Shown here one piece after another: positions 33,055 to 55,900 of a stretch of DNA of 64,000 nt. The translations under genes were made by a program, and so were the position numbers. The stretch spans positions 1 to 64,000 of the forward strand of contig NZ_BLLI01000004.1 in the NCBI RefSeq assembly GCF_011170085.1, written 5' to 3'. The notes under the pieces are model-generated. The model did no database searches and was not told the DNA's origin. It saw nothing but the letters and a program-made list of their open reading frames with translations. The stretch's first letter is position 1, and each line of letters starts with the position of its first letter. The stretch comes from Pseudolactococcus hodotermopsidis. GTDB lineage: Bacteria > Bacillota > Bacilli > Lactobacillales > Streptococcaceae.

Positions 33055-34281
33055 TTAAGCTAAATTAATGCTTGCTATATTCTTACGAATCATCAAAATG
33101 CCGTCACCAAGCGGGAGCAAAGTCGCTGTTAAATCTGGATTTGTTAAAGTTGCCTCAAACAATTTTCGCAAACCACGATAAATCGCACGTTGACCACGTT
33201 TAATCTCAGATTCATCCAAAGTCACATCGCCACCTTGAAAAACATCGTCAATGACAACAATACCGCCGATTGACAAACGTTTTAAAATTTCTGGCAAAAA
33301 AACGATATATTTTGATTTCGCTGAGTCCATAAAAGCAAAATCATAGGTATCACTCAGACTCGTCAAAACATCAACCGCATCGCCTTCAAGCAGTTTTATC
33401 TGCCTACGCACATCATATTTGGCAAAATTTTCACGCGCCAAATCAGCCATTTCAGAATTTCGCTCAATGGTTGTAATCTTAGCACTTGGCGAGGCTTGCG
33501 CCATTAAAAGTGCAGAAAAACCAATCGCTGTCCCAATTTCTAGGATGTTTTTAGGCTGCAAACTCTGCAATAAAAATTGAAAATAAACAACCGTTTCATG
33601 CGGAATAACTGGCACGTTTTCAGCATGTGCAAAATTTTCAATCTCAGCTAAAAAACCATGCAACTGTTTTTGCTCAGTTCTCATAAAGTCAACAATTTCA
33701 GGCTTAACAACAGGTCTACGCATATTAGGATTAGCATGCTTCGTGTAAGATTTGACTGTTTTTGCCTTCTTCAGATGAATCCAATAACGCGCTAAACGTT
33801 TTGTTTTGCCATTTTCATCAAATTCGATAATATTTTCAAGCAAACCACCAACTTTTTCAATCGTCTTACGACTAGGAAGATTGTCCTCAAGCGCTGTAAT
33901 TAGCACGTCAAAAATACCACGCTGACGGTATTTTTCAAATGCAAACTGTAAAAGTTCGGTCATAATACCTTGTTTTCGATAAGACAAAGCTGTCCGATAG
34001 CTGATATGACCAATTTGGCTCAAATTACCTTGTTCAAGCTGCCAACAACAAGTGATACTTGCAGCAATATCGCCCTCATCCGTGATATGATAATAAACCG
34101 TCATCGTCGAATGCTCAGGGCTGTTCGGCGATGTTTCGTATTTTTTAGAGTCATCAAGATAAGCGACAAAATCTGTGTGTTCTGTTATTTGCACAAAAAT
34201 GTTATTTTCAGTCAATAATTCTTGTTGAAATCGCATGAAAGCGACTTCGTCTTGTCTTTTTAAAGTTCTAATTTCTGTCAT
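33055..34281 (-). CDS. GNAT acetyltransferase-O-methyltransferase fusion protein
   Basis: A 408-residue two-domain protein. Residues 1-172 read as a GNAT N-acetyltransferase of the RimJ/YjdJ kind (SYRKQGIMTELLQFA for acetyl-CoA binding, ALEDNLPSRKTIEKVGG after it). A basic linker (about 173-190) joins it to a class I SAM O-methyltransferase (about 195-400; NILEIGTAIGFSALLMA, FAFMDSAKSKY, VVIDDVFQGGDV) matching TrmR/YrrM, which methylates 5-hydroxyuridine in tRNA. In related genomes this slot between pepF and prsA holds the methyltransferase alone. Frame is continuous with no sign of an error. Confidence 0.85.
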   Translation of the reverse strand: MTEIRTLKRQDEVAFMRFQQELLTENNIFVQITEHTDFVAYLDDSKKYETSPNSPEHSTMTVYYHITDEGDIAASITCCWQLEQGNLSQIGHISYRTALSYRKQGIMTELLQFAFEKYRQRGIFDVLITALEDNLPSRKTIEKVGGLLENIIEFDENGKTKRLARYWIHLKKAKTVKSYTKHANPNMRRPVVKPEIVDFMRTEQKQLHGFLAEIENFAHAENVPVIPHETVVYFQFLLQSLQPKNILEIGTAIGFSALLMAQASPSAKITTIERNSEMADLARENFAKYDVRRQIKLLEGDAVDVLTSLSDTYDFAFMDSAKSKYIVFLPEILKRLSIGGIVVIDDVFQGGDVTLDESEIKRGQRAIYRGLRKLFEATLTNPDLTATLLPLGDGILMIRKNIASINLA

Positions 34282-37120: not shown

Positions 37121-37735
37121 TTAAATATTTTTAGAAGAATAATTAGCCACAAATTCCCGTGTCGTCCTACCGTCAGCATAAAATTTGAGATTTTCAGCTT
37201 TTATTTCCATATCAATAAAACGCTGAAAAGTTGACGGCGAGCTGAAATACAAAGCCTTGACTTGCGCATCAAATAACTGAATTTTAAGCGTTTCTCTCGC
37301 ATTTTCAGGCAAATGATTTTCGTAAACACTGGCAGATATGAGGTTGGGTAAGTGTTTTTCGATATAATTATCTGCTAAGTTGGACTTGGGATAAAAAATC
37401 GCCCCCACTGGCTTGGCGTTAGAAAATGACTGCACAAAATCAACTTTAGTGGCAACAGATGAGATAAAATCAACTTTGCGATTTAACTTTTCTGTCACTG
37501 CTGCAGCCGTTTCCTTGCCAATCACAGCGATTTTCTTATCTGCTAAAAAAAACGACGACAAAAACTCAAGAGGCGACTGGCTCGTTAATAAAACCCACTC
37601 ACATTCCGGTTCGTCAAAGGAAATAGGAAGAATTTCAATCAAAGGAACTGAAATCAGCTCAAAGCCACGTTTGGCAAAATTTTCCGCCTTGCGTTTGAAA
37701 TGCCGTGGTAAACCTGTATAAATCATTTTTTCCAT
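37121..37735 (-). CDS. hemD: Uroporphyrinogen-III synthase (short form)
   Basis: A 204-residue HemD-like protein, shorter than the usual 240-260. Recognisable parts are the opening IYTGLPRHFKRKAENFAKRG, the VLLTSQSPLEF stretch, VIGKETAAAV and the late ALYFSSPSTFQRF. It cyclises hydroxymethylbilane with inversion of ring D. Position right after hemC (13-base overlap) supports the call. It ends the siroheme operon. A weak T-tailed stem may follow, overlapping the coiA control region. Confidence 0.82.
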   Translation of the reverse strand: MEKMIYTGLPRHFKRKAENFAKRGFELISVPLIEILPISFDEPECEWVLLTSQSPLEFLSSFFLADKKIAVIGKETAAAVTEKLNRKVDFISSVATKVDFVQSFSNAKPVGAIFYPKSNLADNYIEKHLPNLISASVYENHLPENARETLKIQLFDAQVKALYFSSPSTFQRFIDMEIKAENLKFYADGRTTREFVANYSSKNI

Positions 37736-38616
37736 AACAATTTTTCCGCTGCTTTTCTACCTAAATTTTGAGGGGTTTCACTCATCAAGATGACTTTTTT
37801 CCCCGAAATTTCGCGATTTTCTGCTAAAAAAGCTGTTAATTGCCAAGTTTCGCCAATTTTTTCCGCATAGGCACCAAGTGGTAACTCGCAATTGCCATTT
37901 AAAACTTCGAGAAATTCGCGTTCTATGGCAACTGCTTGTGCAGAGACATTATCTGTGATTTTCTCTAATATAGTCAACATTTCAATATCATCTTTTCGGC
38001 ATTCAACTGCTAAAGCTCCTTGTCCGACAGCTGGCACACATTCAGAAATGCTGAAACGCTGAAAAGTCAAGTCTTTTAAGTAAGCCATGCGCGCAAGTCC
38101 TGCCTCGGCTAAGATAATCGCATCAAATTCGCCATTTTGGAGCTTAGCTAATCGCGTTTCTATTTTGCCACGACTATCTGTGATTTTTAAATCTGCTCTC
38201 AGCGCCAAAAGTTGCAAATCTCGCCGTGAACTTGACGTGCCAATCACAGCATTCGGCGGTAAATCAGCTAAAGACTTAACAGCTGAATCTCTAAAAATCA
38301 GCACATCATTTACCACAGCCCTTGGCGCAATTGCTCCAATCGTCAAACCCGACAGAAGTTTGAAAGGCATATCTTTAGCCGAATGCACCGCCAGATCAAT
38401 CTCGCCCGTCAAAAGTCCCGCCTCAATATCCTTAACAAAGACACCTTTTCCGCCAATTTCTTTCAAAGAAATATCTAATAATTTATCGCCCAAGGTTTTG
38501 GTTGAAATGATTTCATAGTCAAAAAGCCCGATTTTTTCTCGGAGCAAGTCAATGATAATCTGTGTTTGGCGCATGGCAAGCGGACTTTCCCGCGTACCGA
38601 TTCTAATTTTTTTCAT
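37723..38616 (-). CDS. hemC: Porphobilinogen deaminase (hydroxymethylbilane synthase)
   Basis: A 297-residue HemC. The N-terminal IGTRESPLAMRQT is diagnostic, followed by HSAKDMPF, GTSSSRR, and the dipyrromethane-cofactor cysteine in NGNCELPLGAY near 241-251. It polymerises four porphobilinogens to hydroxymethylbilane. Overlaps both neighbours. Confidence 0.95.
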   Translation of the reverse strand: MKKIRIGTRESPLAMRQTQIIIDLLREKIGLFDYEIISTKTLGDKLLDISLKEIGGKGVFVKDIEAGLLTGEIDLAVHSAKDMPFKLLSGLTIGAIAPRAVVNDVLIFRDSAVKSLADLPPNAVIGTSSSRRDLQLLALRADLKITDSRGKIETRLAKLQNGEFDAIILAEAGLARMAYLKDLTFQRFSISECVPAVGQGALAVECRKDDIEMLTILEKITDNVSAQAVAIEREFLEVLNGNCELPLGAYAEKIGETWQLTAFLAENREISGKKVILMSETPQNLGRKAAEKLLWKK

Positions 38617-39043
38617 GTAAAAATGTGACTAACTTTTCTTTTATTTTTTTAATTTCAGATGGGTTGAGACCACCAGAACTCAGAGTTATTTTAATATTTT
38701 TATAATCAATTTCTGCCATCGAAAAAAAGGTTGACTTATCGTGATTGGTCGTGTCATTGAGCAATTGATAAGGCTGAATTTCTTTGACAATTTTTTGGTT
38801 GGTTAGTTGATCAGACGTACAGATAAAAATCATATCATATCCTGTGGTATCGCCTATTTGAAAGGGTCTGCGCAATATTTTGTTAGCTGAGACAAGACTT
38901 GCTATCGTCTGAGAAATGTCAGGTGCAATCACGGTAATGTCCGCATTTTCTTGTGATAGCCGTAAAATCTTGCGCGTTGCGACTTTTCCGCCACCAATAA
39001 CAAGGATTTTTGTGTCACGTAAGTCGTATAAAATCGGTATCAT
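38603..39043 (-). CDS. Precorrin-2 dehydrogenase (Met8/SirC/CysG N-terminal type), short
   Basis: A 146-residue NAD-binding protein: MIPILYDL opening, the Rossmann motif VIGGGKVATRK near 16-26, and LSSGGLNPSEIKKIKEK late in the protein. This is the dehydrogenase of siroheme synthase, converting precorrin-2 to sirohydrochlorin. It is shorter than Met8 or Bacillus YlnF because the C-terminal dimerisation/chelatase part is reduced; a separate chelatase precedes it. The start at 39043 is set by AAAGGA. Confidence 0.87.
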   Translation of the reverse strand: MIPILYDLRDTKILVIGGGKVATRKILRLSQENADITVIAPDISQTIASLVSANKILRRPFQIGDTTGYDMIFICTSDQLTNQKIVKEIQPYQLLNDTTNHDKSTFFSMAEIDYKNIKITLSSGGLNPSEIKKIKEKLVTFLHEKN

Positions 39044-39752
39044 ACTGTTTCCTTTCGCGGATAATGTCGGCAAGTGCAGTTATCATGCGAGAATCAAAAT
39101 TGAGCGGTGTCGTAAAAGCAATCGTCGGGTCAATCGCCCAAACGCTCTTATGAATGCGTTTTTTAACCAAATCGCCGTCATACAAAAAGAAAGGAATAAC
39201 GGTTTGACTAATGTTATTTTCTAAATTTTCGCTAATTGCTTTATCATAATTGCCTTTACCTAGATAATCTACTGCCCGAACAATTTTACTCGTTTTTTCT
39301 GAGAGATTTCGGGCAATAGTCTCTAACATAACTGAAGATTCTGCAAAATGTCGCGTACCGTGTGCCAATAATATCACCTCATCTGAGGTAATTTGCGCCA
39401 CTTTATCACTGAGAATCTCAAAAATCGGCTGTTCGTCGCCAAAATTTTTGAGTAATGTGACTTGAACATGCGGATATTTTTCTGCAATAAAGGCTAGTTC
39501 GTTTGGTATATCAACCAAGGTGTGAATGGCTGGAAAAAGTAAAACTGGCACGACAAGAATTTCGCTAGTCCCCTTTTCTATCAAGCGTTCAGCGACAATT
39601 TCAATCGTATCAGTTTGGCGCTCCAAATAAGCAATTTCTTGCAAATTTATAATTGTTGCTGTTTCTTGACCAACTTTTATAAGAAGATCAGCTAATTGCG
39701 CATTTTTTTCAGGAATTTGACTGCCGTGAACGACGTAGAGGATTGATTTCAT
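39015..39752 (-). CDS. sirB: CbiX/SirB-type sirohydrochlorin chelatase
   Basis: A 245-residue class II chelatase with two CbiX halves. The first has VVHGSQIPEKN with the metal-ligand histidine near residue 9 and a second histidine in FPAIHTLVDIP; the second half has LLAHGTRHF. It inserts Fe2+ into sirohydrochlorin to give siroheme (or Co2+ for B12, of which no other gene is seen). It overlaps the permease gene before it and the dehydrogenase after it. The start is uncertain (39752 or 39767); both have weak ribosome sites. Confidence 0.87.
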   Translation of the reverse strand: MKSILYVVHGSQIPEKNAQLADLLIKVGQETATIINLQEIAYLERQTDTIEIVAERLIEKGTSEILVVPVLLFPAIHTLVDIPNELAFIAEKYPHVQVTLLKNFGDEQPIFEILSDKVAQITSDEVILLAHGTRHFAESSVMLETIARNLSEKTSKIVRAVDYLGKGNYDKAISENLENNISQTVIPFFLYDGDLVKKRIHKSVWAIDPTIAFTTPLNFDSRMITALADIIRERKQYDTDFIRLT

Positions 39753-41190
39753 TGGCTTTTCTTTCATATAAGTAGTTGGCTAAAATGGCAAAAATAAGGG
39801 GTCCGATGATGAGAAACAGCGTTGCTATCACACCATTAGAGACGATTGTTGTGTAAATTTCAAAACCAATTGCAAGTAAAACGGTCATGACAACTGAACT
39901 TGCTAACACCCTTGCTACTGCTGAATGTTTGACTAATTTCAGATAATCTGAGGTAAATTTTTCCTTGAAAAATGGATAGGCTGTCGCAACTAGCAAATAG
40001 GGCAAACTTCTTGCGAGATTTGTCATCAAGGTCAACTGATTATAGAGCGTGGTCACAAGAGGTGTACCGACTGAAACCAGCAAGACAAAAGCCCCTATAA
40101 TCATAGCTTGCGCACGAACTGCTTTAAAATGGATACCGTTTTCATTCGTTTTCAGCAACTTATCTGGAAAAATCTGCCTGTTACCCGCATGGAGCAAAAC
40201 CTTCAACGGCGCATAACCAATCGTAGCAAGGAGCGCGAGGTAGGCGGTAAACATGACAAGGGCGGTGTAGCGGACGTAGAGTTCCGAAATCAGCGGACTG
40301 TTTGGCGCAATGTTACGTGCAAGCTGAGACATTAGCGCATACATGAGATTACCGAGATGTGTCTGCGTGTTGGTCGTGACAGTCGTCCCCATACTCCAGC
40401 TGACAATAGCCAAAAAGTAGAAAATCAAGACGATACCGCCACCTGCTAAGAGCGCTTTGGAGAATTTATTGTGCTGATTACCGACTTTCTCGACAAGACT
40501 TGACACGGTGTCAAGCCCACCAAAAGCGGTTATCGCAAAAATCAAAAAAGGCAACTGTGAGATAAAACCTGTCAGATTTGTCGTTTCAAAAAAAGTTTTA
40601 GAGGTTGCTGCTTTTTTCAGATTCGGCAGAATCATGTCTGGGTGACTAAGTGACAAAATAAGATTTGTCCCAACTGTCAATATCAGGAGACCAATCATCA
40701 AAATACTTGATACATACATGAGCTTTGCGATTTTCAAAAAACCGCGATTGATAATGGTCGTTAGCATTACAATGCCAAATATCGTCAATATCGTCAGCAC
40801 CATTTTAGCAGAAACCCCAAAAATCGTAGTCATTTGCGATATATCTTTTCCAAAAATAAGCAAACCAAAAGGAATCCAAAGTTTGAGAAAAAGTGACGTC
40901 ATCCAAACAAAATAGCTAGCATACCAGATAAAAGTCGTGATAAAAGCGATTTTCGCCGATAAATTATCCGCCAACCAATCATAAAGCGAGCTTTGAGATT
41001 TGGGATAGGCACTGGTAAACTCGGAATTGATAATCGCAAAAGGCAGAAAATAGAAAACGGCTGCTACTGCTAACCAAATCAGCGATTTTAGTCCCATTGT
41101 AAAAAAAGCTGTGGTTGAGCTAGAAAATGAGAAAACCGTTGTCGCAATAACAAGAACAAGCCGTTTGAAAGTAAAAATTTCCTTCTTCAT
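39709..41190 (-). CDS. APC-family amino-acid permease (YjeM/GABA-type) inside the siroheme operon
   Basis: A 493-residue protein with about twelve membrane helices. It opens with the APC signature (VFSFSSSTTAFFTMG) and is closest in style to YjeM and the glutamate:GABA antiporter group. It shares one base with the cobA stop and overlaps the chelatase gene, so it is translationally locked into the siroheme operon. That placement suggests its substrate is a precursor or product of the pathway; 5-aminolevulinate, a GABA analogue, is one possibility. This is inference from context. Confidence 0.85.
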   Translation of the reverse strand: MKKEIFTFKRLVLVIATTVFSFSSSTTAFFTMGLKSLIWLAVAAVFYFLPFAIINSEFTSAYPKSQSSLYDWLADNLSAKIAFITTFIWYASYFVWMTSLFLKLWIPFGLLIFGKDISQMTTIFGVSAKMVLTILTIFGIVMLTTIINRGFLKIAKLMYVSSILMIGLLILTVGTNLILSLSHPDMILPNLKKAATSKTFFETTNLTGFISQLPFLIFAITAFGGLDTVSSLVEKVGNQHNKFSKALLAGGGIVLIFYFLAIVSWSMGTTVTTNTQTHLGNLMYALMSQLARNIAPNSPLISELYVRYTALVMFTAYLALLATIGYAPLKVLLHAGNRQIFPDKLLKTNENGIHFKAVRAQAMIIGAFVLLVSVGTPLVTTLYNQLTLMTNLARSLPYLLVATAYPFFKEKFTSDYLKLVKHSAVARVLASSVVMTVLLAIGFEIYTTIVSNGVIATLFLIIGPLIFAILANYLYERKANEINPLRRSRQSNS

Positions 41191-42152
41191 CAGATTAACG
41201 CATCCAAATCTGCTTGGCTTGTACCGTCACGAAAAACGATTTCATCAAAATTCTGTGTTAGTCTTACTTTGTCAAGATTAGCAAAGCGATTTTGGCGCTT
41301 TTCTCCAACAAGGGTCAGCCAAATATCTGCACCTTGTGACGTAAATTTTATTATTTCTTCAAATTTTGGTAGTTGCCGCCTGACAAGCAAAATTCGCTTG
41401 CCAAATTTTGGTAATTGTTGAAACCATGAATTGTCAGAGCCAAATTTAACAGCATGACCAATAACTATCAGTGCTGGATTTTTTGGTGCTTTTTGAACAA
41501 GATTAGCTGATAAGTCTCCCAAATTTGAGAGAATTGTTCGCTGACTTGGTAATGTGCCATTTTCAATCACAGCAATCGGCATGGTTTCAGGAACAGCTTG
41601 ACTTGATAGAGCTTGTAAAATAGCTGGTAAATTCCCAACAGCCATATACAAAACAAGTGTTGTCGCTGTCAATGTAGCGACCAAATCTAAATCAGCAAAA
41701 TCTGCCAAAGTTTCATGCGGGGTCATGATCAAAACACGCTCCGCAATACCACGCTGCGTAATCGCAATATCCGCATAACTACTCACACTACTTGCAGCAG
41801 TCACAGCTGGTACGACTTCATAGGGAATATTCTCAGCTCGCAAACGCGCCATTTCTTCGCCAACGCGACCAAAAATAGCGGGGTCGCCACCTTTCAAACG
41901 AACAACTGATTTATTATTTTTGGCAAAATTCACAAGTAAGTCTTCGATTTCAGATTGGCTTTTAGCATGCGCATTAGGAGCTTTACCAACGTAGACCAAT
42001 TGGGCTTCCTCCTTGGTTAGATACAATAAAATTTGATTAACTAAGCGATCATAAACAACTACATCAGCTGATTTTAACAAGCGCAAACCTTTTAACGTCA
42101 AAAGTTCAGGGTCACCAGTTCCTGCACCGACGAGATAAACTTTATTGGTCAT
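41190..42152 (-). CDS. cobA: Uroporphyrinogen-III C-methyltransferase with a HemD-like C-terminal stub
   Basis: A 320-residue SUMT. The N-terminal 240 residues are complete: VYLVGAGTGDPELLTLKG, VVYDRLV, VRLKGGDPAIFGR near 83-95, and the late GHAVKFG. It makes precorrin-2 using two SAM. The extra 80 residues (from KRILLVRRQLPKFEEII) resemble the first half of a uroporphyrinogen-III synthase but stop short, as though a cobA-hemD fusion had been cut back, while a separate hemD persists at the end of the operon. Confidence 0.92.
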   Translation of the reverse strand: MTNKVYLVGAGTGDPELLTLKGLRLLKSADVVVYDRLVNQILLYLTKEEAQLVYVGKAPNAHAKSQSEIEDLLVNFAKNNKSVVRLKGGDPAIFGRVGEEMARLRAENIPYEVVPAVTAASSVSSYADIAITQRGIAERVLIMTPHETLADFADLDLVATLTATTLVLYMAVGNLPAILQALSSQAVPETMPIAVIENGTLPSQRTILSNLGDLSANLVQKAPKNPALIVIGHAVKFGSDNSWFQQLPKFGKRILLVRRQLPKFEEIIKFTSQGADIWLTLVGEKRQNRFANLDKVRLTQNFDEIVFRDGTSQADLDALI

Positions 42153-43758
42153 GTCGCGCTAGACTCTCACTCAATTTATCTTGAAATGGTACTAGACCAA
42201 TTCGCTCAAAAAGGTCATAAAAAGTTTCATTTTCGTGTTTTTGTTCTGCGTAGACTGACACCAAATCCTTAACCACTGGCAATAAGATTGACTTAGGTAC
42301 TTTGCCTTTGATGTCCTCATTAAAGTGTCCGTCATTTAATAACGTTCCACCAATAGCAATTGTAAACGCCTCAATCGGCTGACGATTTTTATCACGCGCA
42401 GCAACACCTTGAATGCCAATATCAGCAATATTGCGATGGGCACAAGCATTCATACAGCCTGTCAAAATTACACGAACAGGACGTTCAAACTGGAAGTTAT
42501 CGTCCAGATAAGTCAAAAGTTGACGTGAAATATCTTTGGTTGATGTCAAGGCAAGATTGCAATATTCGTTACCTGTGCAAGTCATGCCGTAATCTTGAAA
42601 ACGCGACGTTTCAAGCGAGAACCTCTCGAAAATCGGTTGCGCAACAACTTCCGCCAAATCAGTATCTTTGATAAATGGTATCAGCAGATTTTGCGAGTGA
42701 TCAAAACGAATTTCATCACGACCATACTGCTCAGCGATTTTGGCAAATTCTGCCAGATCCTTGGCAGCAATCCGACCTGTTGGCACACTAACACCAATAT
42801 AAGAATAGCCTGATTGACGTTGGGGGTGAACACCTAAAACTAAACCATTTGACCAAGAAGTCGTTATATTTTCGCCTGCCGATGCAAGTGGTCCAGTGAG
42901 TTTAAGTAACTCATCTGTAAATTTTGCAACGCCCCAATCTTCCAGTAAAAATTTAATTCGAGCCTTGGCACGATTGCGACGATAACCATGGTCACGATAA
43001 ATGCGCACAACTGCCTCAGCTACCTTAACCACTTGAGAGGGCTTAACAAACAAGTCCAAATATTGCGCTAAATAAGGCTTAGCGCCCAAACCACCGCCAA
43101 CTTTTACGGCAAAACCTTTATAGACTTGACCGTTAATTTTCTTAGTCGCAGGCAAAAATGCCAAATCATTAATTTCAGCATTGGCAGAGTTCATCGTAGA
43201 TGCCGAAACAGAAATCTTAAATTTGCGTGGCAGATTAGAATAATCTGTGTTTCCTTGAAAAAAAGTATGTACTTTCATGAGTGTCGGTGTCGCATCAAAA
43301 CATTCAAACTTATCAATGCCCGCAAGCGGATTACCAATAACATTTCGATTAATATCGCCTTCAGCACCACGTGTTGTCAAGCCAACAGCCTCGATTTCAG
43401 AAAAAGTATCAAGTAGTTCAGAAAATTTAATGTTATGATATTGAACAGATTGACGCGTTGTGATGTCAAGAAAACCACCGCCACGCCTTAAAGCAAGATT
43501 AGCAAGCAATTTAGCCTGAGCAACAGTTATCATTCCCGCTGGAATTTTGACACGTAACATAAACTTGCCATCAGTTTGCGGCTTTTGCACCGTTAAACCC
43601 GCATATTTGAAGTACATATAGTAATATTTTGAGATGTTCTCCCAAGGTGTGTTGATTATTTTAGAAAAATCGTCAAAAACTGCCAATCCGTCTTTTTCAA
43701 GTTTGGCAATTTCGTTTTTATTTAATTTTTCAGTCGCCCAAGTGGCTACATATGTCAT
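42142..43758 (-). CDS. nirA: Siroheme-dependent ferredoxin-nitrite/sulfite reductase (NirA-like)
   Basis: A 538-residue enzyme with two ferredoxin-like half domains. The [4Fe-4S]-siroheme ligands are TCTGNEYCNLAL (C-x5-C) near 399 and LTGCMNACAHRNIADIG (C-x3-C) near 442. The CTGNEYC form is closer to ferredoxin-nitrite reductase (NirA) than to sulfite reductase as I know them. It would reduce nitrite to ammonium (or sulfite to sulfide) by six electrons. First gene of the siroheme operon, with AAAGGAGG. No electron donor or transporter for nitrite is beside it. Confidence 0.88.
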   Translation of the reverse strand: MTYVATWATEKLNKNEIAKLEKDGLAVFDDFSKIINTPWENISKYYYMYFKYAGLTVQKPQTDGKFMLRVKIPAGMITVAQAKLLANLALRRGGGFLDITTRQSVQYHNIKFSELLDTFSEIEAVGLTTRGAEGDINRNVIGNPLAGIDKFECFDATPTLMKVHTFFQGNTDYSNLPRKFKISVSASTMNSANAEINDLAFLPATKKINGQVYKGFAVKVGGGLGAKPYLAQYLDLFVKPSQVVKVAEAVVRIYRDHGYRRNRAKARIKFLLEDWGVAKFTDELLKLTGPLASAGENITTSWSNGLVLGVHPQRQSGYSYIGVSVPTGRIAAKDLAEFAKIAEQYGRDEIRFDHSQNLLIPFIKDTDLAEVVAQPIFERFSLETSRFQDYGMTCTGNEYCNLALTSTKDISRQLLTYLDDNFQFERPVRVILTGCMNACAHRNIADIGIQGVAARDKNRQPIEAFTIAIGGTLLNDGHFNEDIKGKVPKSILLPVVKDLVSVYAEQKHENETFYDLFERIGLVPFQDKLSESLARHDQ

Positions 43759-43938: not shown

Positions 43939-46900
43939 CTAGCTATAACGAACACTCACATTTGCTTGTGGGTCATCAAAACTTACAAATGCGTTATCAA
44001 CCGTTGTTTCAACATTATAGCCGTCAACAGCTATTTCAAAGCTGATAGCACCTGTCATGCTGTCAATCACGACTTGTGCATTGTCTGAGCTATAAGTTGT
44101 TGCACTTGCACCATCAAAATACGCCATTTCAGCATCAGCTGCAAGCTGTTTACCCGTTAATAAATCAAGCGAATATTCCCGTGAAAGTCGAGCGCTTAAG
44201 AGCATTTCTTGAGAGCTTTCAGCTCCTTGCTTAAGCAAATCAACCGTGAATTGCACTTCTTTCGTTTCAAACGCACGTTTTGTACCATGAACGAAACGAA
44301 CAGAATAAATCGTATCAGCTTGGCATTCTGCTGGATTGCTTGGTACATCAGTTGATTTGATAACATAACCTCTAGTACGATAACTTGCCAAAACAACCTC
44401 GTATTCTCGGGCTGTCAGAACCGTCATCGTCAACATACGATTAGGAAAGTCACAGATAAGCGTGAACGAAATCGGATGATAGTTTACCGTCAACACGATA
44501 TTTTCAGGCTTAGTTGGCTGTTCAAGTAAGGCATCTACCACGACTTCCGAACTTTCCGTTGCATAGCCTACCACAAGTGGAGAGGCTATCGGTTGCAAAA
44601 CAGTAACAGGTTGATAACTTATCACGCCTGTTACGAGGTCAGTATCAATTTTCCAATAAATAACCTGAACAGTCGGTGCCAAATGTTGCGCTTTTGGCAA
44701 GCCAACGTAAACAACCATTAGTTTGGTCTCATAGTCAACTTGTGTATGTTTATGCTTAAGATGAATAGTCAGCACCTGATCAACCGTCTCATCTGCCTCA
44801 TAACGCGTTGCTTGACGACTGTAATCAGTCACATCAACATATTGAGCAGGATAAGGTTTGTGGATAATCGTTTCATCCGTTTTTCCTGTCACTGGATAGC
44901 TATCCAAAATTTCACCGTCATTATCATCATCAACGACTGTAACCGTTACCTGTTGCGCATTTGCCGTATAAGCAACTGTCAATACCAAATCTTCAGGTTG
45001 AGTTATTGTATCAAGTAACTCAGGTGCTGTTACCTCAGCAAAACGTGTCGTATAACCAACAACAGATGGATTGGGGACAGAAATTGGCTGTTGCATTGGC
45101 TGATAAGTCGTGATACCAGTCACTTCATCCAAATTCGTTTTCCAAGAAATAGTCTGAACATTTAGCGGCAACTTTTTATCTTCCGACAAACCGTCGTAGC
45201 TAATGGTAAACTTAGTTTCATAAGTATCCCGCATATGTTGATGAATCAAATGAATCGTCGCCTTCTGATCAGCGCTATCATTGGCATCAAAATGGCTTGG
45301 TAAGTGACGATAATCAGTCACATCAAGATACATGGCTGGACAATCTTTAGGATAGACAATCTGTTCATCCGTCTTACCAGTTAACGTATAAGTCTCAACT
45401 ACTTCGCCATCTTTTTCATCATCAACAAGTATCACGACAACTTTTTGTTTATTTGCCGTATACGTCACTTTCGCCGTCAAATCGCCAGGTTCAGTCGTTC
45501 TTGCAGTCAATGTCGGCGCAGAGAGTTCTGCGAACTTAGTCCCATAACCTAAAACAAGTGGATTTGGTACAGAAATTGGTTGTGTGAGTGGCGTATAAGT
45601 CGTTACATCAGTCACGTCATCATAGTCTATCTCCCAAGCAATTGATTGATTATTTGGTTCTAATTTTCGATCTTTTGGCAAGCCAACATAAACGACCATG
45701 ACCTTACTTTCATAAGATTCTTTGTGATGCTTATGGGTCAGATGAATCGTCACATTCTGAGCATTATTAGCAGCAGTCTCCTGAAAATGTGTCGGCAAAC
45801 TGCTGTAATCCGTCACGTCACAATAACTATCAGACCATTCTTTGCGATAATCAATCAGTTCATCTGTTTTACCAGTTAAAGTATAACTGTCAAGTATCTC
45901 CTCGTTATTTTCATCATCAACAATTGTAACCGTCAGCGTCTGCTCAGTTGCCGTATAGCTGACAAATGTTTCAACAGATTCAGGTGTCGTCAGACTCTCC
46001 AGTGGCATAGTCACAAGAACAGTCGCTTTATCAGCTGTATAACCTGAGATAACAGGACTCGCCACAGGAGTTATTTCTGTCACAAGTTGATACATCAATT
46101 CGCCCGTTACGTCATCCTTATCAGTTTTCCAAGCAATCGTTTGAACAACTGGCTCAGGCTGATTAGCTTCAGGCAGACCAGTATAAATCACTCGGTTACT
46201 TGTTTCAAAAGTGCCATAATCATGGCGATGCGCCAAATGAATCGTAACTGCTTGCGCAGCACCATCAGTCGCTTCAAAGTAGCTAGGCAAATTGCTCTCG
46301 TCTGTTACCTCAACATAAATAGATGCCCAATTCTTACGATAATTAATAACATCATCCGTTTTACCAACCAAGGTATAACTATCAAGGACTTGGCCATCGG
46401 TATCATCATCAACAACCGTGACAAGCACTTGTTGCTCGGTTGCCGTATAGGTCACTTGCGCTGACATATCTTTTGGTTCAGTCGTCCGCTCCGTTAATTT
46501 GACAGGCGCAATTTCTGCTTTTGCTGTCATATAACCTGATACAATAGGATGAACCACAGTATTAATAGTCGTAAGCGGCGTATAAATTGTAAGACCTGTT
46601 ACATCATCAGTATCTGTTGACCAAGAAACCTTTTGAATCACTGGTTCAATTTTTTTCTCATCAGGTAAGCCAACATAAATAACCGCTACATTTGTTTCAA
46701 AAGTACCAGATGTATGGCGATGTGCCAAATGAATCTGCTCAGTTTGCTCAGCTGTCGTCTCTCCATCAAAAATCCAAGTAAACTGCTCCCCTTCGCCATT
46801 ATAAACATAATGCGATAGTAAGGCATCAGCTTCATCAGCCAAAACAAAAGTATGTTCAGAACCCGACAAACCAGCTCGTTTTGTCGTGCCAATCACTCGA

Positions 46901-46950
46901 CCATTATCATCATCATCCACATAAGCCAAGGTAATCTTTTGCAAAGTTGG
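43939..46950 (-). repeat. Giant gene super-block 3 (five units plus closing module)
   Basis: Residues about 3465-4467. It opens with the KITLAYVDDDDNG domain, has GLP units at about residues 3559, 3721, 3890, 4052 and 4215, and closes with a module containing SSDNAQVVIDS and a SVRYS end. Confidence 0.8.
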
Positions 46951-49900
46951 CTCATAAACAATTGTCACATTACCAAAAAGATTAGTAAAATTCGCTTCGC
47001 CACTTGCAACGATTGTCTCAGTTACCTCGCCATTAATCGGCAAGTCAAAACTAATCTCTCCTGTTGCAACATCAATCACAACTTGACGATTGTCTGAGTG
47101 ATAAGTTTCAGCACTCGCATTTGCGACCTTGGCAATATTAGCAGTGGTTACCGCTCGATTCGTTACCAAATCAAGGGAATAGTCATGCGAAATCTCTGCC
47201 GTCAAATCTATCTGTTTATCTATCTCAAATCCTGTCGCCATTAACGTAACCGAAAAATCAGCAGTTTTCGTTTCAACAACACGTTTACTATTGTGAACAA
47301 AACGAACCAAACCACGTATCTCGTTTAAATTAATATCCTTGAGATTTAAGCTATCAACTGGCTTACCGTCAAGCAATGGCAGATAACCATCCGTCAGGTA
47401 TTGCGCTAATTCGACTTTAAATTCAGCAGCTGTCAATTTGCTCTTAGCAAGCGTTCGACCAATCGTTTCATCAATGAAAGTGAAATAGAAACTCAAAGCA
47501 GTATAGGTAACCGTTGCAAAGACATCTTCAGGTTTAGTTGTTGATTGACCAAATCTCGGTGCAACAATTCTCGGCTTGTCAGCTTTAAAGAAATCAATAG
47601 GAGGACTTGGCACTGGATTAACCACTGTAATAGGCTTATAGTTAATAATGCCCGTCACTTCGTCCTTATCAGTTTCCCAACTAATCGTTTGCACATTTGA
47701 GTCGAGCTGTTTATCATCTGGTAAACCAACATAAGCAACTTGCGCAACTGTTTCAAGCGTACCAAATGTATGCCTATGCGCCAAATGAATTGTAATCGCC
47801 TGACCACGCGTAGTCGTTGCCTCATAATAATTGACAAAGCTATCATAATTCGTCACATCTTCATAGCTAGGTAACCATTTCTTTTGGTACTCCAACGGCT
47901 CATCCGTTTTACCAATCGTAACATAACGCCCAATCACTTCGCCACGTTCATCATCGTCAACAATCGTCACAGTCACTTTTTGCATATCAGCAGTATAAGC
48001 AACAGTTGAGAGCAAATCTTCAGGTTTTGTCGTTGTTTTGACTAATTTGATTGTGTCAATTTTTGTTTTTTCAGGTGTATAACCTGGAATAACTGGACTT
48101 GATACAGAATTGATAGACGAGCTTGGCGTATAAAGTGTGACACCAGTCACTTCGTCTTCATCACTTTCCCAAGAAATCGTTTGAACAATTGGTTCAAGCA
48201 TTCTAGCTTTTGGCAAGCCAGTATAAGAGACGGTTGCACTTGTTTTAAGTGTATCTCGTGTATGTTTATGCGCCAAATGAAGCGTTACGATTTGCTCGAC
48301 TGTATCATCATAGCGATTTGAAACTTGCTGATAATCCGTCACATCCTCATAACTCTCAGACCAATTTTTATGATAGTCAATCGGTTCATCGGTCTGACCA
48401 ATCAACACATAACTATCAACAAGTTCACCGTCATTGTCAATATCTAAAACATTGACAGTCACTTGTTGCTCATTTGCCGTATAAGCAACTAACATCTCAA
48501 TCGTTTCAGGTTGATCTGTCGTTTCAGCCACTTCGATCATCACTTCTTCATACTCGGCTGTATAGCCTGAAACAATCGGACTCGGCACAATCGGCAGTGA
48601 ATCAACTGGTTTGTAAGTTGTAAATGCCGATACTTCATCCGTATCAGTTGTCCAAGAAATCGGCTGAACAGTCGGCTGACGTTTCTTATCTTCTGGTAAA
48701 CCAGTATAGACAATTCTTGCCATTGACTCATACGTTCCTTGCGTATGCTTGTGCGCCAAATGAATCGTTACCATTTGACCGCCACTTGCAGCAAAGCGAT
48801 TTGAAAGAAGCGTATAATCTGTTACATCCACATATTTATCAGACCAATTTACTTGGTATTCAAAACTATCATCAGTTCTACCTTCGACAATGTAGCTGTC
48901 AACAATTTCACCCTTATTATCATCATCAACGACAGTTACAGTCACATCTTGCACATCTGCTGTATAAGTAACAGTCACCAATAATTCTTCTGGTTTAACA
49001 GTTCTCTCAGCCAGTTCAGCCAAGAAAATTTCTGATTTTTCAGGCGTGTAACCGACAACAACAGGACTAGGTACAGTTTTAACAGGCGTGACAGGTGTAT
49101 AAGTCGTCATACTAGTCACTTTGTCCTTGTCAGTTGCCCAAGAAATTGTCTGAATATTTGACATTAATTGCTTATCATCAGGCAAACCTGCATAAACAAC
49201 AGTCGCTTTGGTTTCAAGTGAGCCTTGCGTATGGTCATGCACCAAATGAAGCGTTATAATTTGCTCATTTTCATCTGCTTGATAACAATTTGGAATGTTA
49301 TCATAATTAGTCACATCAACATAGCTAGTTGACCAATTTTTATGGAGCTTAAAGACTTCATCAGTTTTACCAATAAGGACATAACTATCAATAAGTTCGC
49401 CATTTGCCTCATCATCAACAACACTAACTTTGACTTCTTGATGATTCGCCTCATAAGTCACCGTAGCAGTGACATTTTCAGGCTCAGTTGTTGTCTCAGT
49501 CAAGGCAAGCGTAAATGCTAATTGACTAGCTGTATAGCCAGCAATAACTGGACTTTGTACAATAACATCTGTCATCACAGGCTTATATGCGATAACTCTC
49601 GTTACCTCATCTGTGTCCGTTTGCCAAACAAGCGTTTGACTATGTACTGCCACTTCCTTATCCTCAGGTAACCCAACATAATTAACAGTTAGCAAAGTTT
49701 CAAAGGTAGCCGCCGTATGCTTATGTGTCAAATGAATCGTGACAACTTGATTAACACCATCTTTATCATCATAGAAATTAGAAAAACTGTTGTAATCCGT
49801 CGCATCAACATAGCCAGGCAAACATTTTTTGTGATAATCAAAAGGTTCGTCAGTTTTTCCAGTCATCAAGTAACTATCAATCGTTTGATTTTGCTCATCA

Positions 49901-52900
49901 TCAATGATAGTTACCATTACTTTTTGCTCATTTGCCGTGTAAACGACAGTCGCCGTCCTATCTTCAGGTCGGGTCGTCGTTTCTTTTAAGTTAATCGCCG
50001 AAACTTCTGTTTTTTCAGGCGAATAACCCGAAACACTCGGACTTGATACAGCATTGACAACTGACTTAGGATAATAGGTCGTTATGCCTGTTACCTCATC
50101 TTTATCCGTTATCCACGTAAGTGTTTGATTATTTTTTTCAAGCTGACGCGCCTCAGGCAAGCCTAAATAAATCACACTTGCATTTGTTTCAAGTTTAGCT
50201 TGCGTGTGCTTATGTGTCAGATGCAACCTGACAAGTTGATCTGCTGCATCATTATCATCATAATGCGTTGGCAAAAGCTGATAATCAGTCACATCTTCAT
50301 AAGTTGTCGCCCAATTTTTCTGATAAGTGAAACTTCTACCGGTTTTACCTGTCAATACATAAGTTTCGAGAATCTCGCCATCATTATCATCATCAACAAC
50401 TGTCACTTGCACCTTTTGCTCATTTGCCACGTAAGTCACAGTTTCTGATGAATCTTCAGGTTGGGTTGTCATCTCACTTAAATCAACTGGCAAAATTTCA
50501 GCTTTTTCAGCTATATAACCTGAAATAACAGGAGTTGGCACAGCATTTATAGCCGTAACTGGCGCATAAGTCGTGAGTTTAGTCACTTCATCAGTATCAG
50601 TTTTCCATGAAATCGTCTGAGTTGTCGGCGCAAGTTCTTTAGCTTGCGGCAAACCAAAATAGGTTACAGTTGACCTGGTTTCATGTGTCCCTAAACTATG
50701 CTTATGTGTCAAATGAATCGTTACCGTCTGTTCATTTTCGCTATCAGCTTCATAACGATTTGAGATAGCGCTATAATCCGTCACATCTTGATAACCATCA
50801 GCCCAATTTTCTTGATACTCAAAAGTTTCATCAGTCTTACCTTCAACAACATAGCTGTCAACGAGTTCGCCGTTTTTGTCATCATCAATGACCCTAACAG
50901 TTACTTTTTGAACATCTGCCGTATAGGCGACAAGTTTCTCAATATCTTCAGGTTTAGTCATCGTTTCAGCCAATATTGCTGGAAAAACATCTGCACTTTC
51001 AGCAGTGTAACCTAAGACAAGAGGACTTGTTACAAGATTGATACTTGTAAGCGGTGTATAAGTCGTCACATCACTAGCCAAATCGGTATCTGTTGCCCAT
51101 GAAACTGTCTGAACACTTGACTCTAGTTGCTTATCTTCTGGCAAACCAGTATAGGTTACCGTTACACTCGTTTCATATGTTCCTGGTTTATGTTTATGCC
51201 ACAAATGAATCGCGATGACTTGCTTATTTTCCTCATCTGGCTCAAATTTATTTGGCACTTGACTATAATCAGTCGCATCGAGATAGTTATCTTCCGACCA
51301 ATTTGGATGAATCACAATCGGTTCATCTGTTTTACCAGTCACAACGTAAGTAACAATAGTTTCATTCAGATCATCATCAATGACAGTGATTTTTATGCCT
51401 TGCATATCAGGCGTGTAAGTTACCGTTGTCGTGAGATCTGTTGGTTCAGTGGTTGTCTCAAATAACGCCGCCGAAACTTCCTTCTTATCAGCAGTATAAC
51501 CTGCAACAACTTGACTGACAATGAGATCAGCAGACGTTAGAGGTTTATAACTCATAACTCCTGTAATCTCATCCTTGTCAACTTCCCAAGAAATCGTCTG
51601 CGTTTTTGGTTCAATCTTTTTATCATCAGGCAAACCAGCGTATTCAATAACTGACAAGGTTTCAAGCCTACCTTTTACATGATTATGCGCCAAATGAATC
51701 GTTATCGTTTGATCAATACCGTCATTATCATCATAAGTAGTCGCAAAATTGTTATAATCTGTGACATCAAGATAGCCAGCTTGCCAATTTTTTTGATAGG
51801 CAAACGTCTCACCAGTTTTACCCGTAAGTGTATAGCTGTCAACAACTTCAGCGTGTTTGTCATCATCAACGACAGTTACCATCACTCTTTGCTCATTGGC
51901 AAGATAAGCTACCGTCGTTGTCAAGTTTTCAGGTTTCGTCTCCGTTTCAGTCAACTCAATTGCGGCAACGCCAGCTATTTCAGCAGTATAACCTGCGATA
52001 GTAGGGTTTGGTACACGATTCGCAGACATCGTCGGTTTATAGAGCGTAACACCTGTCACTTCATCTCTATCAATGTTCCAAACAATCGTTTGAATCGTTG
52101 GTGCTGGTAGTTTAGCTTTTGGCAAACCTGCATACTTCACCACTGCCTGTGTTTCATATGTGCCTACTGTATGCGTATGCGTCAAATGAATCGTTACAAA
52201 CTGTGTGATTTCTTCATCCCTAGGGGCTTGATGTACCTTAGGAAGCGTACTATAATCCGTCACATCAAGATATTCAGGTGGCCAATTCGTCTGAAACTCA
52301 AAAACTTCATCTGTTCTACCAATAACTTCATACCTGTCAACAATGTCATTGTCATTGTCATCATCAACAACATTTACGATAACTTTCTGCTCGTTAGCCG
52401 TATAAGTTACTCCTGTTTCAATATCATCTGGTTTTATCGAAGTTTCATCCAAATCAAGCACCGCAAGTTCTGCTGTATCAGCCGTATAACCTAAAACAAT
52501 TGGACTTGGCACCGCAACAAGTGTCGTCAGCGGTCGGTAGCGCACATCGCCTGTCACATCATCAGTATCAACTTCCCAAGAAATCGCCTGAATATTTGAG
52601 GTAGGTTGTCTATCCTCAGGTACACCCAAATAAGACACTATCGCTTTGCTTTCAAACGTGTCTTTTGTATGATGATGTATCAGATGAATCGTTACTGTTT
52701 GCGCATTATCATCAGCTATATAGTAGTTCGAGATATTGCTATAATCTGTCACATCTTGATAAGCAGTTGACCATTTCTGTTGATAAGCAAACGATTCGCC
52801 TGTTTTACCAGTGACAACATAGCTATCAATAATTTTACCGTTCTTATCATCATCAACAACCGTTACCGTTACTTCTTTGGTATTTGCCGTATAGGCAACC

Positions 52901-55900
52901 GTCATCACTATATCTTCAGGCTTGGTTGTCGTTTCTTGCAAGTCATCAAGTAAAACTTCTGACTTCTCAGCCGTATAACCTGCAACAGGTGGACTTGGAA
53001 TCCCTTCAATGCGTTTTTCAATTTTTTTGCTGAGAAAAGTGTAGTTGACATGACCAACTTTAGCTGAGCTTGGCGCATCACTAACATTTGAAATAGGCTT
53101 ATAAGTCGTGATATGCGTGACTTCATCCGTATCCGACTCCCAAGAAATCGTCTGAATCATAGCCGCAGGTGTCAGCTCAAGTGGCAAACCAGTATAGCTA
53201 AGAGTCAAAGTCGTTTCATGCGTGCCTTGCGTATGCTTGTGTCTCAAATGAATCTCAACAATCTGTTCTTTATCTGCCTCCTCATAAAAAATCGCAAGAC
53301 TACTATAATCTGTCACATCAAGATAATCAGCCGGACAAGTCCCCTGATACTCAAAAGGTTCGCCAATTTTTCCAGTGATAAAAAGGCTATCAATAATTTC
53401 ATCATCTTTATCCTTATCAATAATATTGACAAGAATTTTTTTCTCAGTTGCAATATAAGCAACAGTTGCCGTCACATCTTCGGGTTGGACCGTTGTTTCA
53501 AGAAGTTCAGCAGGTAAAATTTCTGACTTTTCAGCCCTATACCCCAAAACTTCTGGGCTTGGCACGCTCGTTACAGGCGTAAGTGGCGTATAAGTCGTAA
53601 GCCCCAACACTTGGTCTGTATCAGTTGCCCAAGCAATCGTCTGACTTACTGCTGCTAGCTGAAGTTCTTCGGGTAAATTCGCATAGACCACCGTAACTTG
53701 TGTTTCATGCGTTCCTTGCGTGTGTTGATGCTTCAGATGAAGCGTGATAGTTCGGTCATCATCTGCCTCATAACGAGTCGAAATACCACTATAATCTGTC
53801 ACATCAAGATAATCAGCTGACCAATTTTTCTGAAACTCGAAACTAGCATCAGTTTTTCCTATAATGTGGTAGCTATCAACAACTTCCCCATTAGCATCAT
53901 CATCAACGACAGTTATCGTCACTTCCTGATCATTTGCCGCATAAGTAATCGTCATCTCAATAGATTCAGGTTGCGCTGTCGTTTCACGCAATTCAAGCGT
54001 CAAACTTTCCACATTTTCAACCGTATAACCAGAAATCTCAGGACTTGCTAAAGTCGTAACAGGTGCAGACGGTATATAGGTCATGACACCTGTCACTTCA
54101 TCTGTATCAGTTGTCCACGAAATTGTCTGAACAGTCGGCTCAAGTTGCCTAGTCTCAGGCAGACCACGATAAAACATCGCAACACTTGTTGCAAAAGCAC
54201 CTTGACTATGCCGATGCGCCAAATGGACAGTCACCGTTTCGTCAGCCGTATCATTGTCATCAAAAGCTCGATCAAAATAATCGCCCTCGCCATGATAACG
54301 ATACTTTTTCAATTTTTCATCGCTTTCAAAATCAAGTTGAATGACAGAACCAACCGCCCCTTCTCGAACAACAGTCCCTATTTCTTCGGTAGTCTCATCA
54401 TCAACATAACATAGCGTGATTTTCCGAAATGGTGGGACATAATTAACAGTCAAATTAGCTTGCAAATGATCAAAATCAGCCACATCGCCATCAACTGTTA
54501 TGCCTAACATCTCGCCCTCAACAGGTATATCAAAACTAATAACACCCGTTGCACTATCAATTATAATTTGTGATTGATTTGAGCTATAAATTTCAGCACT
54601 TGCACCGTCATATTTTGCCAAATCAGCACTTGGGACTTCATCTCCAGTTACCAAATCAAACGAATAATCACGCGAAATCTCAGCAGTCAAAATAAGCTCT
54701 TGCGGTGCAATAAGATTATCTTTGGCAAGCAAATTAGCCGTGAAATTGGCAAGACGCATCTCAACCGCACGTTTCGTACTATGACTTAAGAAAACCGAAT
54801 ATTCCGCATCAGGCAAACGCTCACTTGGGACATTATTTTCCTTGATAATATAACCTTTAGCTTGATAACGTTCCAATTCTTTTTCAAACGCATCAGCTGT
54901 TACCGCTAATGTTTTCAGTACTTGCCCGATACTTTCATCATGGAAAGTAACTGTAAACGTCATCGGACGATACGTGACCGTCACGACTAAATCTTCAGGT
55001 CGCGTCGTGACCTCATCAGCTTCAGCTGCTACAACCGTCTCAACATCAACCGTATAACCAACGATACTCGGACTTACAATCGTCTTTGGCACAGTCACTG
55101 GTTGATAAGTCGTAATACCAGTTGCCTCATCAAGATTTGCTTTCCAGTTAATCGTCCGAATAGCAGGCGCAGGCTTTAGCAAGTCAGGCAAGCCAATGTA
55201 GTTGACCAACAAAGTCGTCGCAAAAGTATCCTGAACATACTTATGTTTAAGTTGAATCGTAATCGTTTGCGCAACATCCTCCAAATGATTAAATGACTTC
55301 GGTAATTCCTCCTTACCTGAAATATAATCATAACCAGCAATATCAACAAATTCATAAGCAATCGTTTGATTGAACTTACCATCAATTTCATCTCTCAGGA
55401 TAATCTTATCATCATCAGTCACATCAACATAGTTGATAATTATTTTTTGTGGTTGCGCTTCAAAATAATATTCTTTTTTCTCAGCAATATCTGTTGTCCC
55501 ACAAGAAATCAGCTCATCCGCAGAAATAGTCGCTGCAATTTTAGTCAATTCATCAGCGAAATAATCAAAAATAGTCCCCAAATCAAGCGTATGACTAAGA
55601 ACCGTCTCGCCAGCCGTTGTCAAATTATAGCCAGAAAATTCTGGCAAGGCAACATTTTCATCATTTGCCACAACCACTTGTTTGCGATCAAGCACCCAAG
55701 AAATCTCAGAAGTATTTTCAACCTCACGCTTACCTTGAATCGTGATCTCAAAAGTCTGCTGCAATTCATCTTCAAGTTCATTATCAAGAAAATACAAATT
55801 GGCGCGTTGATAAGTCAATTGCGCCGTAAGCGTTTCAACCACCAAGTTATAGGTTACCGTTAATGTTATATTTTCGGGCTGAACAGTTGTCTCAACTACC

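Follow-up and report, generated by a model that had tools for sequence, protein, structure and literature searches.

The stretch of DNA analyzed here (the window) comprises 64,000 nucleotides from Pseudolactococcus hodotermopsidis (positions 1 to 64,000 of contig NZ_BLLI01000004.1). On its minus strand, from position 43758 to 37121, seven open reading frames follow each other without interruption in the order nirA, cobA, permease, chelatase, precorrin-2 dehydrogenase, hemC, and hemD:

42142..43758, minus strand: NirA-type siroheme/4Fe-4S reductase, 538 aa (NIR_SIR and NIR_SIR_ferr), most likely a ferredoxin-type sulfite reductase
41190..42152, minus strand: cobA, uroporphyrinogen-III C-methyltransferase, 320 aa (above the TIGR01469 and PRK06136 cut-offs)
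39709..41190, minus strand: YjeM/GadC-like APC permease, 493 aa (PF13520, AA_permease_2), proposed porphobilinogen importer
39015..39767, minus strand: CbiX-type sirohydrochlorin chelatase, 250 aa (PF01903)
38603..39073, minus strand: precorrin-2 dehydrogenase of the SirC/CysG N-terminal type, 156 aa (PF13241; TIGR01470 barely above cut-off)
37723..38616, minus strand: hemC, hydroxymethylbilane synthase, 297 aa (TIGR00212, 309 bits against a cut-off of 164)
37121..37735, minus strand: hemD, uroporphyrinogen-III synthase (HEM4), 204 aa (PF02602, 79 bits against a cut-off of 27.5)

Integrity and conservation of the operon

Neighboring genes overlap at all six junctions (11, 1, 59, 59, 14, and 13 nt from 5' to 3'). 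With the next in-frame ATG as start, the two 59-nt overlaps would shrink to ca. 44 and 29 nt and would still be overlaps; in a sister species (G010), the permease and chelatase genes do not overlap and are separated by a 32-nt gap. The initial annotation had described seven overlapping genes leading from porphobilinogen (PBG) to siroheme and to an enzyme that uses it. This description was borne out, as the reading frames are uninterrupted, the families were confirmed, and the assignments place the whole route and its siroheme enzyme in a single operon, which is real and intact. No gene is broken by the inactivating mutations that the same annotation had considered, and active sites are retained; in an alignment with the E. 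coli enzyme, HemC keeps the catalytic Asp84, the cofactor Cys242, and the substrate-binding arginines. In every operon gene with a usable estimate dN was far below dS, which was saturated.

Gene order is the same in P. hodotermopsidis (G000) and two sister species (G010 and G003), with protein identities of 62 to 80% to G010 and 41 to 72% to G003. Rather than running throughout the genus, the operon is patchy: nirA and hemC were both present in these same three of the 12 genus genomes sampled, and the operon permease was found in the three and in none of the remaining nine. The neighborhood varies as well. In the window, the gene of a MucBP-repeat protein precedes the operon and a CoiA-family gene follows it; the flanking genes of G010 and G003 are different. 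GC content (40.0% for the operon, 39.7% for the window) does not indicate a recent transfer. An Rfam search of the window and three related loci returned no match, alignment of the upstream regions of the three genus operons gave no convincing common site, and promoter and terminator matches at the operon were not clearly above those in shuffled sequence.

Some other features of the window deserve mention. The MucBP-repeat protein directly upstream (43939-57342, minus strand) is 4467 aa long and carries MucBP_2 and Muc_B2 domains, in a search that covered its C-terminal part. CobA extends ca. 70 to 80 residues past its methyltransferase domain, where the models stop near residues 237 to 246, and this extension had no Pfam match. 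Further down, a 408-aa reading frame (33055-34281, minus strand) combines an N-terminal GNAT acetyltransferase domain with a C-terminal O-methyltransferase domain.

Substrate of the reductase

The reductase retains the four cluster cysteines (C-x5-C and C-x3-C), aligned to C434, C440, C479, and C483 of CysI. The anion-site residues of CysI (Arg83, Arg153, Lys215, and Lys217) are all found in the enzymes of P. hodotermopsidis, G010, and G003; the two lysines belong to a Lys-Phe-Lys motif matching K215-K217 of E. coli CysI. Its domains are those of CysI, Mycobacterium tuberculosis NirA, and plant nitrite reductase, and the cluster cysteines and anion site are as in CysI; what sets it apart from all of them is its place in one operon with the full pathway from PBG to siroheme and a transporter. 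A scan of the genome collection for NirA recovered only distant reductases (41% and 28%).

Nitrite would be the substrate suggested by overall similarity. The top NCBIfam model is the ferredoxin-nitrite reductase equivalog PRK09566, with a score under the cut-off (428.3 versus 594 bits), and plant nitrite reductases are the best-matching solved relatives (PDB relatives include 1zj8 and 3b0g). Moreover, neither CysH nor CysD was found in P. hodotermopsidis or G010. However, the position of the second lysine of the motif (K217 of CysI) is Asn in one of the tobacco nitrite reductase chains in the alignment and Lys in another, which we take to be the natural residue and an engineered variant with higher sulfite activity, respectively. 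The genomic surroundings also point away from nitrite. In G003, the run sbp-cysT-cysW-cysH-cysA-cysD-cysN directly precedes the seven genes, which form its tail, and in G010 a SsuA/TauA-like (sulfonate-type) ABC transporter is located immediately upstream of the operon. Given the Lys-x-Lys motif, the sulfate-assimilation genes of G003, and the transporter of G010, sulfite is a more probable substrate of the enzyme than nitrite, and we consider it unlikely that the operon serves nitrite reduction. Of the "nitrite (or sulfite) reduction" proposed by the initial annotation, the siroheme reductase stands and the preference shifts to sulfite. Since CysH and CysD were not found in P. hodotermopsidis and G010, sulfite in these two would have to come from sulfonates or from outside the cell.

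Missing enzymes for porphobilinogen synthesis

We did not find hemB in the P. hodotermopsidis genome or in any of the 12 genus genomes (two of them a single contig), and no hemA scored above cut-off in the same set. A PBG salvager would lack hemA, hemL, and hemB and retain the later genes; in P. hodotermopsidis, the genome-wide search covered hemA and hemB and found neither, and hemC, hemD, and cobA are present. As HemC is present without HemB, external PBG would be needed. The source of the precursor, left open when the operon was first described, can thus be addressed: hemA and hemB are both absent from the searched genomes of the genus, and we propose import by the operon permease as the answer.

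The P. hodotermopsidis assembly is fragmented (a 97% complete draft in 138 contigs), which might hide hemA and hemB and with them an ordinary pathway. This is hardly credible, since hemB is absent from 12 of 12 genus genomes and from 39 hemC-positive genomes of other genera, and the search itself works, with hits in 21 of the 196 family genomes and in 11 of 14 controls. At the cut-off used, 41 of the 42 hemB-less genomes lacked hemA, which each of the 15 hemB-positive controls had.

Salvage of tetrapyrrole precursors has been predicted from genomes, and dependence on 5-aminolevulinic acid (ALA) was demonstrated in three species (Shelton et al., PMC6461909); a later review includes PBG salvage among its categories (PMC8123684). 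The operon resembles the salvagers of the former study in that the first steps are missing and the later ones retained. It differs in that those salvagers were defined on cobamide pathways, with no transporter named in the accessible part of that paper, while the present analysis links a candidate transporter to the loss of hemB in siroheme, cobalamin, and heme clusters. PBG is included in the exometabolome lists of two Roseobacter strains (PMC5643483), so that it can exist outside cells. A literature search for PBG uptake or a PBG transporter, with subscription journals and preprints outside its coverage, found no paper.

Distribution and predicted cargo of the permease

The permease is homologous to the YjeM/GadC family along its entire length. 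The closest NCBIfam model is YjeM (PRK15238), whose cut-off is not reached (318.6 versus 400 bits), and GadC, with a weak match, was the sole solved relative found. No physiological role has been established for E. coli YjeM (PMC12003319), and its Lactobacillus plantarum counterpart is a glutamate/GABA transporter candidate with no functional study (PMC9909107). Listed before only as a member of the operon, which it is, the permease turned out to be the crucial component, a point missed at first, since the gene tracks the loss of hemB across unrelated tetrapyrrole clusters.

Among 395 Lactobacillales genomes, hemC was present in 93. We tested 76 of these for hemB, of which 40 were negative and 36 positive; the other 17 belong to genera g16 and g42, whose tested members are all hemB positive. 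A single-protein search located close permease homologues near hemC in most hemB-less genomes, while hemB-positive genomes had only distant, unlinked ones. A profile made of 16 cluster-linked sequences, from the genus or from sampled genomes, was then run over the 395 genomes. The 36 genomes scoring at least 630 bits were all hemC positive and hemB negative, and the next score was 505. With two more hemB-less genomes, one with a divergent permease (G449) and one with a truncated copy (G458), the subclade was present in 38 of the 40 hemC-positive hemB-negative genomes versus 0 of the 355 others, including 0 of the 36 tested genomes with both hemC and hemB. Counted by genus among hemC-positive genomes, the ratio was 11 of 12 versus 0 of 11. 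Fisher tests on 36/40, 0/355, and the genus counts gave p-values that are indicative only, since species are not independent and the profile was partly built from the same genomes. A search across 398 genomes of the phylum gave, besides P. hodotermopsidis itself, at most 465 bits, the level of the unlinked paralogues, and a plasmid search returned distant relatives only (at most 33% identity among the matches listed), annotated as YjeM where annotated.

The cluster contexts, established from open reading frame maps of 43 regions and family annotation, were of five types. Besides the NirA-type siroheme operon, the permease occurs in nreABC-chelatase-dehydrogenase-nirBD-cobA-FNT-hemCD clusters, with AsrABC (L069), at the end of cobalamin clusters where hemA, hemB, and hemL are missing (L066 and L067), and in a heme cluster made up only of permease, hemC, hemD, a HemG-like flavodoxin, and hemE (L071). 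The NirBD clusters of other Lactobacillales share cobA, chelatase, dehydrogenase, hemC, hemD, and the permease subclade with the P. hodotermopsidis operon, equally without hemB, but differ in having nitrite reductase and nitrate-sensing genes and a divergently transcribed permease. The cobalamin clusters give the clearest contrast, as the complete ones (L082, L083, and L084) have hemA, hemB, and hemL and no permease. In the HemC tree, L066 and L067 fall among hemB-positive HemCs, which shows that their loss was separate from the others. As exceptions, permease and hemC lie in different clusters in three genomes (G232, G300, and G463).

This match between the subclade and hemC without hemB, across siroheme, B12, and heme clusters, favors PBG import. 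We propose, with a probability of roughly 70%, that the operon makes siroheme for a sulfite reductase by a salvage-fed pathway, in a cell that cannot make PBG and imports it through the permease. HemC would join four of the imported PBG molecules, and HemD would close the ring to uroporphyrinogen III. CobA would methylate this to precorrin-2, the dehydrogenase would convert precorrin-2 to sirohydrochlorin, and the chelatase would insert iron to give siroheme. The cofactor would then go into the NirA-type reductase, predicted to reduce sulfite to sulfide. That the permease carries PBG, that it does so inward, and that the P. hodotermopsidis enzyme acts on sulfite are predictions from sequence. 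We also think it fairly likely that the whole subclade is a dedicated PBG transporter, a portable module permitting the loss of hemA, hemB, and hemL in Lactobacillales, with siroheme, B12, or heme made from imported PBG. Such a transporter may work as an exchanger, for instance ALA out and PBG in, which would fit G285, an exception in having hemA and hemL and no hemB.

ALA could be the cargo instead, with an unrecognized, nonorthologous enzyme converting it to PBG. ALA is GABA-like and the permease GadC/YjeM-like, and salvage of ALA is experimentally known in other bacteria (PMC6461909). However, hemB is absent from 42 of 42 genomes, a set defined in this way, and true ALA salvagers would retain it. 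The clusters have no unknown gene in common either, as illustrated by the five genes of L071, which makes a hidden PBG synthase less likely. We give ALA import little credence.

A further alternative is that the permease serves another need (an amino acid, a sulfur compound, or a counter-ion) and that PBG enters by diffusion or through a general peptide or amino acid transporter. Relatives of YjeM carry amino acid transporter annotations, multicopy E. coli YjeM permits threonine uptake (PMC12003319), and two genomes, G205 and G274, have hemC and no hemB without a permease of the subclade. Nevertheless, a different cargo would leave unexplained why the subclade tracks hemB loss in clusters with such different end products (siroheme, B12, and heme) and why it is missing from all the tested genomes that have both hemC and hemB, so we regard this alternative as improbable. 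In G205, another uptake route may exist.

In a maximum-likelihood tree that also included 20 unlinked paralogues and the YjeM of E. coli, all 31 cluster permeases fell on one side of a branch with support of 85/98. There are 23 positions fixed in at least 90% of the linked permeases and rare in the others, among them Ser21, Ser23, and Ser24 in TM1 and Thr221, Asp227, and Thr228 in TM6, as well as Arg394, which is invariant in the linked permeases and Met or Val in the paralogues. For all its full-length homology to YjeM and GadC, the operon permease differs in its separate subclade, the TM1 and TM6 changes, the added arginine, and a score below the YjeM cut-off. In a profile alignment, its TM6 motif corresponds to AdiC 203-209 and to the equivalent GadC motif. 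In APC carriers, the region of this motif lines the substrate site. With its aminomethyl group and its two carboxylates, PBG would be a chemically plausible substrate for a carrier that resembles GadC and carries an additional arginine. An AlphaFold2 model of the permease, predicted from the single sequence, had a mean pLDDT of 50 and was set aside.

What is new is probably a known type of carrier, with a substrate that has no earlier description, completing a known type of pathway. With one candidate gene tracking hemB loss in siroheme, B12, and heme clusters, the question of PBG transport becomes directly testable. If the proposal is correct, PBG would be a nutrient shared within microbial communities, many "glutamate/GABA" permeases beside hemC would need reannotation, and lactococcal relatives without the early heme genes might still assimilate sulfite.

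Several related loci had peculiarities of their own. In G458 (L073, C1:682000-684500), the truncated permease adjoins a truncated hemC and the nirBD-siroheme genes between them have been lost, so that permease and hemC decayed together. In G205 and G300 (L075/L063), genes assigned by eye from the sequence to a MetNIQ-like ABC transporter and to a suf-like group lie next to cobA-hemC. G285 carries ysxC-hemA-hemL with no hemC, hemD, or hemB between (L164, C5:2864000-2880000); it has no hemB, and its hemC and hemD are part of a nirBD cluster that includes the permease, so that ALA would be expected and PBG would not. A suspected case of hemA, hemB, and hemL without hemC in G059 (L087) was rejected, as hemC is located ca. 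28 kb away. A family genome, G065 (L088, C4:81194-86300), has hemA-hemB-hemL-hemC-hemD together, and its HemC clusters in the HemC tree with those of hemB-less nirBD clusters. Finally, the cobalamin clusters of G420 and G470 (L080 and L081) contain single reading frames of ca. 745 aa that match HemA as well as HemC and are apparently fusions of the two.
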